Shown here one piece after another: positions 35,859-50,946 of a stretch of 64,000 nt of DNA. Position 1 is the first letter of the stretch; each line of letters begins with the position of its first letter. The notes beneath the pieces were generated by a model. That model ran no database searches. It had not been told where the DNA came from and saw nothing but the letters and a program-made list of their open reading frames with translations. The stretch lies in the NCBI GenBank assembly GCA_000155695.1, contig DS990592.1, positions 749,919 to 813,918 of the forward strand, in the 5' to 3' direction. Origin of the DNA: Verrucomicrobiia bacterium DG1235 (GTDB taxonomy: Bacteria; Verrucomicrobiota; Verrucomicrobiia; Opitutales; Opitutaceae). Both the position numbers and the translations under genes were made by a program.

Positions 35859-36731
35859 CTACCAATCTTTGGCATCGGGTTGCGACTTCTGCTTTTCGCC
35901 CGATTGGGCTTCTTGTAGAATCTTGTAAAGTTTTCCAGGCTCGTCCTGCTGCTTCAGCTGTTCGAGCATTTGCATCAATGCCGCTCTTTCTGCCGCGATT
36001 GGCTCGCCGGTCGTTTGCTGGCCGCCCAGCTGCTGCATTTGTTCAGGAGGAGACTGTTGTTGCTCTTGGTTTTGATCGAGCTGGATGTCTTGGGGTTGCT
36101 GATCTTGCTCCAGATCTCCCATCTGAGCCCCGTCTTGAGCTTTGGGCATTTCGGTAGTCTCGTCCTGGCCGCCTTGCTCGCCGGATTGTTCTCCTTCTCC
36201 CTGTGGCTGCTCCTGTTCTTGCTGTTCGCCGTTTTGGCCCTGCTGGGATTCGCTTTGCTGCTGTTCGCTTTGCTCTCCGTCTTGGTTCTGTTGGGATTCG
36301 CTTTGTTCGGATTTATCGCCTGACTGCTGTTGGTCTTGCTCTCCCTGTTCGCCTTCCTGGGAGTCTGAATCTTGGTTTTGCTCCTGCTGCTGCTCGGGAG
36401 GAGGTTCAAGAAGCTTGAGTAACTGCTCTTCCAACGCGTCCCATTCCGGACGCTCCGGTGCGACAGTTCGCCCAGCGGCTACGGCATCGAGAGCGTCGTG
36501 CAATGAAGAATCAGGGAGCTTTTGACCCTGTTGCATCATAGTCTGGGCGACTTGTAGGGTGCCACCGGCCATATTGAGATATTCTTCAGCTCCGATTTCA
36601 TCGAGCTCCGCAATTTGAGAGATGTAGTCCGGCAGCGTCATGCCTTCTTCTTGAGGCTCCGACTCCTGTCCATTGAGATTCCAAAAGGAGAAAGCTAGTA
36701 GAAATGTCGCTAGAAAATGGATACGTTTCAC
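35859..36731 (-). CDS. batC: BatC-like protein with long Gln/Glu-rich region
   Basis: The 290-residue protein has a signal peptide (MKRIHFLATFLLAFSFWNLNG), a short helical domain (30-110) and an extreme low-complexity stretch (about 112-240) made almost only of Q, E, S, G, D and N. A conserved helical end follows (AALMQMLEQLKQQDEPGKLYKIL). The end resembles the BatC/aerotolerance C terminus seen between BatB and BatD genes. Its start overlaps the batB stop by 4 bp. The function is unknown; a scaffold role for the VWA proteins is often proposed for this locus. Confidence 0.72.
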   Translation of the reverse strand: MKRIHFLATFLLAFSFWNLNGQESEPQEEGMTLPDYISQIAELDEIGAEEYLNMAGGTLQVAQTMMQQGQKLPDSSLHDALDAVAAGRTVAPERPEWDALEEQLLKLLEPPPEQQQEQNQDSDSQEGEQGEQDQQQSGDKSEQSESQQNQDGEQSEQQQSESQQGQNGEQQEQEQPQGEGEQSGEQGGQDETTEMPKAQDGAQMGDLEQDQQPQDIQLDQNQEQQQSPPEQMQQLGGQQTTGEPIAAERAALMQMLEQLKQQDEPGKLYKILQEAQSGEKQKSQPDAKDW

Positions 36732-50357: not shown

Positions 50358-50431
50358 AGCCTCGTGGTGTAATGGTAGCACCAAGGTTTCTGGTTCCTTT
50401 AGTCGGGGTTCGAGTCCCTGCGAGGCTGCCA
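50358..50431 (+). tRNA. tRNA-Gln (anticodon CTG)
   Basis: The 74-nt cloverleaf folds with acceptor stem AGCCTCG/CGAGGCT, D arm GTG...CAC with AATGGTA loop, anticodon stem AAGG/CCTT with loop TTCTGGT (anticodon CTG), T arm CGGGG/CCCTG with loop TTCGAGT, discriminator G and an encoded CCA (50429-50431). The GTGGTGTAATGGTAGCAC start and discriminator G fit glutamine tRNAs. Its last 19 nt are the first bases of the first 171-bp repeat unit downstream. Confidence 0.93.
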
Positions 50432-50946
50432 CTTTGATTTCAAGTGGCTACTGTCAGTTCACTCGGGATTGGAAGGTATCGAACCCTAGGAGATGCAGGG
50501 CGAGAAACCCGAAGGGGTTTGACGAAGCGCAGCGGAGATGGGCGATGCGAAGCATCGGGACGAAGTCCTGAGCGCAGCGAATCAGTCCCTGCGAGGCTGC
50601 CACTTTGGTTTCAAGTGGCTACTGTCAGTTCACTCGGGATTGGAAGGTATCGAACCCTAGGAGATGCAGGGCGAGAAACCCGAAGGGGTTTGACGAAGCG
50701 CAGCGGAGATGGGCGATGCGAAGCATCGGGACGAAGTCCTGAGCGCAGCGAATCAGTCCCTGCGAGGCTGCCACTTTGATTTCAAGTGGCTACTGTCAGT
50801 TCGCTCGGGATTGGAAGGTACCGAACCCTAGGAGATGCAGGGCGAGAAACCCGAAGGGGTTTGACGAAGCGCAGCGGAGATGGGCGATGAGGAGCATCGG
50901 GACGAAGTCCTGAGCGCAGCGAATCAGTCCCTGCGAAGATTTCAAC
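50413..50946 (+). repeat. Three 171-bp tandem repeats, each beginning with the 3' end of tRNA-Gln
   Basis: Units are 50413-50583, 50584-50754 and 50755-50925, followed by a truncated fourth (50926 to about 50946). Each begins AGTCCCTGCGAGGCTGCCA, identical to the last 19 nt of the tRNA, so unit 1 overlaps the tRNA gene. Units 1 and 2 differ at one base (50437 A, 50608 G); unit 3 has four other changes. Each unit holds inverted repeats: GCCACTT/AAGTGGC (the first arm uses the CCA), AAACCC-GAAG-GGGTTT, GATGC-GAA-GCATC and GGAC-GAA-GTCC. The period is a multiple of three, so one frame stays open. The likely product is a structured RNA processed from the tRNA transcript; the role is unknown. Confidence 0.93.

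Follow-up and report, generated by a model that had tools for sequence, protein, structure and literature searches.

We analysed a window of 64,000 nucleotides from the marine Verrucomicrobiia bacterium DG1235 (contig DS990592.1, positions 749,919 to 813,918), in which a tRNA-Gln(CTG) gene occupies positions 50358–50431 of the plus strand (ARAGORN; Rfam tRNA model, 54.3 bits). The last 19 nt of this gene (50413–50431) form the first copy of a repeated tail. TRF reported a period of 171 with 3.1 copies, 98% matches and no indels over 50413–50936, a separate repeat search of the tRNA-Gln array gave spacings of 171 and 171, and full-length 19-nt tails start at 50413 (within the tRNA), 50584 and 50755, while the fourth, beginning at 50926, agrees over 11 nt only. 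The preliminary description had proposed exact 171-bp repeats carrying the last 19 nt of the tRNA, with a truncated fourth copy, and the tRNA call, TRF, repeat spacing and tail positions all bear this out. The genes on either side of the array, for a NUDIX protein and for an arginine decarboxylase, lie on the minus strand, and neither is a recombinase. Elsewhere in the window, TRF detected two 48-bp tandem copies at 36208–36305.

Two complete units follow the tRNA, and after them comes a third whose tail is broken and whose P4 hairpin is altered; all three are on the plus strand. Unit 1 (50432–50602, 171 bp) comprises a 54-nt leader, an RtT-like fold and its own tRNA tail with CCA; it is matched over 50486–50602, with 102.4 bits, by R1, a covariance model made from 24 Verrucomicrobial units and no sequence from E. 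coli. Unit 2 (50603–50773, 171 bp) is near-identical to it (R1 match at 50657–50773, 102.4 bits), and unit 3 (50774–50944), with its 11-nt tail match and altered P4 loop, scores 92.6 bits over 50827–50945. Tail comparison places the second copy at 50584–50602 (end of unit 1), the third at 50755–50773 (end of unit 2) and the cut fourth copy at 50926–50936. The leader hairpin, GCCACTT-TGATTTC-AAGTGGC (50428–50448), includes the CCA end and has no T-run after it.

Within unit 1, strand X (segment 1, GCAGGG; 50495–50500) pairs with tail positions 50587–50592 to form helix P1, as indicated by covariation and own-tail pairing. The P2 hairpin AAACCC-GAAG-GGGTTT (50505–50520) is defined by covariation and T-stem matching, and its 3′ strand, taken together with TTTGA, reproduces the T-stem 5′ strand and the T loop in split form (segment 3). 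Covariation also delineates P4 (CGATGC-GAA-GCATCG, 50543–50557), and P5 (GGAC-GAA-GTCC, 50558–50568) is drawn from covariation in alignment A2. Tandem G.A pairs and a GCA triloop occur in both P3 (50519–50538; alignments A1 and A2, covariation) and P6 (50569–50581; A2 covariation).

Kinship with RtT and the fold of the family

The Rfam model of RtT, RF00391, matched units 1 and 2 at full length (positions 1–130 of 130) with 27.9 bits and an E-value of 0.0028 in 601 bases. The window units thus stay below the Rfam gathering cut-off of 45 bits (27.9, 27.9 and 17.3 bits) and fall outside the narrow Rfam definition of RtT. The best RF00391 score in the DG1235 genome, 43.1 bits (E = 1.1e-6), belongs to tRNA-Tyr units, none of 19 relatives scored over 45 bits and, among 14 named control genomes, E. 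coli alone matched. We infer that this cut-off owes its height to a seed made up of close relatives. In the opposite direction, R1 matched all four E. coli K-12 tyrT units at full length, with E-values from 2.5e-12 to 7.2e-11 in 3 kb, which is an independent reverse test of kinship.

The expected features of RtT are present as well: units that end in the ~19-nt tail of the upstream tRNA (window units 1 and 2; broken in unit 3), a closing helix in which the tail pairs with an upstream strand, and a tandem-GA hairpin (UCGAC/GGAGA in A1), tandem GA being named as an RtT feature in earlier work (PMC7657543). In our judgement, the window repeats and the E. coli tyrT/RtT repeats are, in the wide sense, one structured-RNA family beyond doubt. 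The likeness to tyrT that had been drawn from the window alone holds more strongly than claimed, because motifs and structure are common to E. coli RtT and the models match both ways. The accompanying view that the repeat sequence was apparently unrelated is wrong, given the full-length RF00391 match and the four R1 matches, and the two explanations offered with it, a tail-duplicating mechanism only or an independent RNA family, both miss that this is a single family. Units unrelated to RtT that had converged on GCGNAGC hairpins would fit the scores below the Rfam cut-off; the E-values of the independent model and the common motif order (GATGAGAA, GGUUCGA, tandem GA, tail) make such convergence barely conceivable, and we rejected the unrelated-repeat reading on the RF00391 and R1 matches.

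The fold was examined in two alignments. A1 was aligned by sequence alone and excludes L039, L043, L044, L066, L067, E. coli and further units of L031, L050, L062 and L071; A2, with 111 units of which 105 are distinct, was fitted to the model, and its counts are therefore biased toward the structure. In A1, standard pairs made up 86.1% of pair cells compared with 75.7% after shuffling and double-change cells numbered 83 compared with 29.2, neither value being reached in 500 shuffles, while the number of further pair types was unexceptional (94/500 shuffles). The model-fitted A2 gave 92.3% versus 72.7% standard pairs and 580 versus 180.9 double-change cells (0/500). When the structures were slid by 1–3 columns, only 33–47% (A1) and 40–53% (A2) of cells paired. 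Covariation is present in every helix of the model, and the compensatory hairpin changes for which the preliminary description had proposed a covariance check were found among relatives, at 0/500 shuffles in each alignment. In our judgement, the fold of the family is beyond doubt.

GNA triloops end P3, P4, P5 and P6 in 52, 54, 73 and 61 of 105 units, respectively. In P2–P6, G.T outnumbers A.C by 49 to 20, which points to the tRNA-sense strand. P1 taken alone shows no G.T excess (20 to 26) and does not support a strand reading. Opposite-strand folding was rejected on the P2–P6 counts.

The tyrT precedent had also brought up the Tpr peptide. In favour of a Tpr-like small basic peptide as the selected product, Tpr takes its start from the ATG within GATGAGAA, and 81 of 105 units have ATG as the aligned codon. 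However, the frame is open in 61 of the 105 units compared with 58 and 12 for the neighbouring frames, and unit length modulo 3 is spread 32/41/32. With its conservation unsupported by these frame counts and length phases, and no conserved tpr frame found, Tpr-like coding was rejected and is highly improbable as the selected product.

Distribution across phyla and turnover

With the model R2 at E up to 0.001 per genome, elements were found in 47/240 sampled Verrucomicrobiota, 54/397 Pseudomonadota, 16/247 Bacteroidota, 4/63 Chlamydiota and 4/198 Actinomycetota, counts that include centre genomes, which were selected for a pattern match, and from which stricter filters lose weak matches. The Pseudomonadota figure is an upper one, as it includes genomes with weak matches (G165, G270, G455 and G489, each with many weak scattered R2 matches) and two loci, L269 (from G489) and L271 (from G499), in which no tRNA was found. 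Dispersed weak matches such as those of L269 and these four genomes are perhaps REP-like elements with common hairpins. In three genomes of 1.7–1.8 Mb filed under Actinomycetota (L341, L342 and L343), RtT-like units whose tail copies are exact stand behind tRNA-Ser, tRNA-Met and tRNA-Asp; the remaining one, the centre genome, has no tail copy and is probably a chance match. Units behind tRNA genes are thus on record for Verrucomicrobiota, Chlamydiota, Bacteroidota, Pseudomonadota and these three Actinomycetota genomes, most of them ending in a copy of the adjoining tRNA tail.

In 62/76 and 21/29 fetched loci, the 13 nt that precede the CCA of the tRNA are found again in the next 1.5 kb with no more than one mismatch, although these counts include loci fetched twice and some recurrences that are a second tRNA copy. 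By a stricter count, a tail copy lies 70–320 nt downstream, with no tRNA between, at 183 of 304 distinct tRNA or tmRNA genes; as the 304 genes come from loci fetched for the element, this is not a prevalence. The core motif lies between tRNA and tail copy in 154 of the 183, and some genes outside the 183 have broken copies (L318 and L322). Units occur with 11 amino-acid kinds of tRNA in the fetched loci, and the stricter count comprises 61 genes for Ser, 49 for Pro, 19 for Tyr, 15 for Gln, 10 for Met, 8 for Leu, 7 for Glu, 6 for Lys, 4 for Val, 3 for Arg and 1 for Asp, the single Asp gene being an R2 match in which the core motif was missed. At L180 and L157 (Nitrosospira and Nitrosovibrio), the upstream gene is tmRNA and the tail copy is worn, none lying within 2 of 13 mismatches. 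Good tmRNA-tail copies end units in L117 and L147, where no tmRNA adjoins.

A pattern scan gave at least 120 stretches. Among those listed, 73 lie no more than 400 nt behind a tRNA or tmRNA and have a tail copy that differs at 0 or 1 of 13 positions, 5 have tail copies with 2 mismatches, 19 have a tRNA or tmRNA without such a copy, and 23 have neither gene in that range. Of the 23, which were read except for L188, L194, L196, L206 and L208, eight (L107, L118, L144, L164, L189, L197, L199 and L202) look like chance matches and others follow displaced tails or contig ends.

Several loci showed further arrangements. On the Nitrosospira sp. Nsp14 contig (L147, L117 and L106), several tmRNA-tail units are separated by a few kb and by intervening genes, as though one tail copy after another had received an island. 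An AbiEi/AbiEii toxin-antitoxin pair (Pfam) at L034 231–1759 precedes a tRNA-Val tail with terminator and RtT unit that are severed from their tRNA, as if an island had inserted at the T loop. At about 1916–2150 of L032, a tRNA-Ser tail, a terminator and an RtT unit stand without a tRNA, and unrelated DNA joins at TTCGAATCC. In leaders or flanks of L035, L039, L044, L071 and L178, a second common motif (loosely, TCCNTCGC..GAAGCTTCGGATGGCACGCC) follows several Opitutae tails.

The turnover of the element was followed in 23 Pelagicoccus loci, each with one unit. Cores behind the same tRNA in other species had a mean p-distance of 0.17 (14 pairs) compared with 0.27 for different tRNAs in the same genome (34 pairs), and cores grouped by tRNA (2/5000 shuffles as low) rather than by genome (4315/5000). 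Recent spread within a genome was rejected on this grouping. The recent amplification or gene conversion suggested earlier fits the near-identity within the window array, but the elements at these 23 loci go with the tRNA from species to species.

Among 5,426 E. coli genomes, at megablast sensitivity, tyrT-type units occur in 4,680, at 1 to 9 places each, and proK-type units in 2,661 (2,650 with at least 80% of the query). Comparing the MG1655 and DH5a records, one 168-bp proK unit is lost in DH5a, with 1 mismatch in the next 654 bases. The E. coli proK unit is therefore dispensable, being carried at that query coverage by about half of the genomes and lost once in DH5a. An element-free site at E. 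coli proK was not found: the four shorter alleles read all keep the start of a unit, and so show unit loss rather than an empty site. In Salmonella, a 175-bp VNTR has been described at rtT (PMC2658671). RefSeq labels the E. coli proK element (L302 1207–1340, L305 and L310) 'RtT sRNA, processed from tyrT transcript' despite the tRNA-Pro upstream; the label is a carried-over note.

A T-arm copy, probably self-masked, and its possible role

Unit ends were compared with the tRNA for the 98 of 111 A2 units that have one upstream (13 do not), mismatches being counted on the 89 that differ at no more than 8 of 21 positions. Mismatches amounted to 70% in the final T-stem 5′ base together with UUCGA, 6% in the last two loop bases, 1.1% in the T-stem 3′ strand and 3.5% in the acceptor 3′ strand; an exact CCA was absent in 10 of the 89. 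From this profile, the tail copy starts at the T-stem 3′ strand or 1–2 bases earlier.

Segments inside the unit are also matched to the adjoining tRNA (89 rows in the segment test, 63 unique). The outer four positions of segment 1 pair with the unit's own tail in 74% of cases compared with 46% for swapped tails (0/10000 shuffles, 71 pairs). Segment 3, the five bases before UUCGA, is identical to its own T-stem 5′ strand at 2.02 of 3 positions compared with 1.13 by chance (0/10000, 63 cases), and the match is kept after collapse to 32 cases (0/10000); the 'GGUUCGA' box of the units thus repeats the T-stem 5′ strand of that tRNA. Segment 1 likewise matches this strand of the adjoining tRNA (0/10000, 61 cases). 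Because segments 1 and 3 both resemble the T-stem 5′ strand, two alternative folds can be drawn, one joining 2:3 and 1:4, the other joining 1:2 and 3:4. The former, masked fold has the lower energy in 61 of 74 units and the higher in 9 (74 of the 98 being parseable).

These locus-matched segments, together with covariation in every model helix, speak against the view that slippage duplicated the tRNA 3′ end in tandem and left inert copies devoid of function. That account draws on variable copy number (1–9 places per unit-bearing E. coli genome), on broken units that end several arrays and, among the at least 120 pattern-scan loci, on the 19 of the 120 listed that have a core by a tRNA or tmRNA and no tail copy within 2 mismatches; it is already disfavoured and we regard it as quite improbable. 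A more specific proposal, which we put forward tentatively and at slightly less than even chances, is that RtT is one branch of a cross-phylum family on tRNA and tmRNA 3′ ends with a split, self-masked T-arm copy, in which the 5′-strand-like segments 1 and 3 and the 3′-strand-like segments 2 and 4 are re-tuned for each tRNA. The element might thereby neutralise its own tRNA-derived sequence, or switch between 1:2/3:4 and 2:3/1:4.

Several published observations bear on transcription. Northern signals have been reported for RtT RNAs in Actinobacillus pleuropneumoniae (PMC4986893), an RtT sRNA is up at low temperature in Thioalkalivibrio (PMC8092127), and a role of E. coli rtT in amino-acid limitation is cited in PMC4986893. 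The annotated E. coli rttR (NC_000913) ends at the CCA of the tail copy. Several observations count against reading the units as RNA: in our scan, an intrinsic-terminator-like site lies between tRNA and unit in 21 of 74 first units; the two A. pleuropneumoniae RtT RNAs are described as lying upstream of tRNA genes with their own predicted promoters (PMC4986893); unit 1, folded by itself, has an energy no better than its shuffles (z = −0.70); and P1 lacks a G.T excess, GNA triloops are frequent, the E. coli proK unit is dispensable and the window units score below the Rfam cut-off. A second terminator-like site follows the unit in 17 of those 21, and 48 of the 74, the window array included, have neither site.

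The paired terminators also fit an element acting as DNA, in which a single-stranded hairpin module of the same strand would spread or recombine at tRNA and tmRNA 3′ ends, with tail plus terminator as att-like direct repeats and transcription incidental. GNA triloops, the commonest loops of the family, are also used by stable DNA hairpins. The unit lost between the MG1655 and DH5a records, with so few changes beyond it, fits such a module, as do the unit-bearing tails parted from their tRNA by unrelated DNA in L032, L034 and apparently Nitrosospira. Against it stand the cores, which track the tRNA across species and not the genome, and the RNA products reported from two gammaproteobacterial genera besides E. 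coli (PMC4986893; PMC8092127). We consider the DNA-level reading unlikely, at roughly one chance in five.

The reading that we favour, and hold to be probable, is that the units, a run of RtT-type elements, are transcribed into a structured RNA that is freed at the CCA and hides its T-arm copy by internal pairing. Each unit consists of a leader and a fold of ~118 nt, closed by a helix between segment 1 and segment 4 (its own tail copy), with the pairing of segments 2 and 3 covering the copy of the T-stem 5′ strand with UUCGA. The unit thus carries the T arm of its tRNA, split by four small hairpins and with both halves masked by partners inside the unit. As to processing and function, we infer that units would be transcribed after the tRNA, by read-through where a terminator intervenes, and that the transcript would be cut behind both CCA ends, that of the tRNA and that of the tail copy, in line with the coordinates of E. 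coli rttR; masking may then stop the copied T arm from competing with tRNA folding.

E. coli rtT, a curiosity since 1991, is here seen as part of a broad family tied to tRNA and tmRNA tails. The natural covariation, driven by the sequence of each tRNA, makes the structure testable by simple K-12 mutations, and the breadth of the family makes a broader Rfam model and improved gene annotation desirable. It also raises the question of how a short RNA or DNA element acquires the tail of the gene ahead of it.

RtT beside other tRNAs has already been published for gammaproteobacteria: the A. pleuropneumoniae RtT sRNAs Arrc20 and Arrc21 (PMC4986893) and, by its annotation, that of E. coli proK belong to the same family on other tRNA genes, and the available passages on them mention neither a locus-matched T-arm copy nor other phyla. 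Among the matches listed in our literature search, in which subscription papers were thinly covered, there was no RtT paper outside gammaproteobacteria; the spread over phyla, the association with tmRNA and a T-arm copy matched to each locus were not met in the literature passages searched and are new to this extent. Like E. coli tyrT/rttR, the window has tail-ended units of ~170–180 bp 3′ of a tRNA, the GATGAGAA motif (GCGAGAA in the window), P2 with GGUUCGA, the tandem-GA hairpin, P4–P6 and a closing helix with the tail; it differs in tRNA, phylum, a score below the gathering cut-off and the lack of a conserved Tpr frame. With REP/BIME elements, among which rtT-like elements have been placed (PMC2965389), the units share short GC-rich hairpins between genes. 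Unlike REP/BIME, they are mostly tied to tRNA or tmRNA 3′ ends with tail copies. Where integrases use the 3′ end of a tRNA gene as their att site, the tRNA tail is likewise directly repeated, whereas the unit repeated here is a structured element of ~170 bp that is also matched, inside, to each tRNA.
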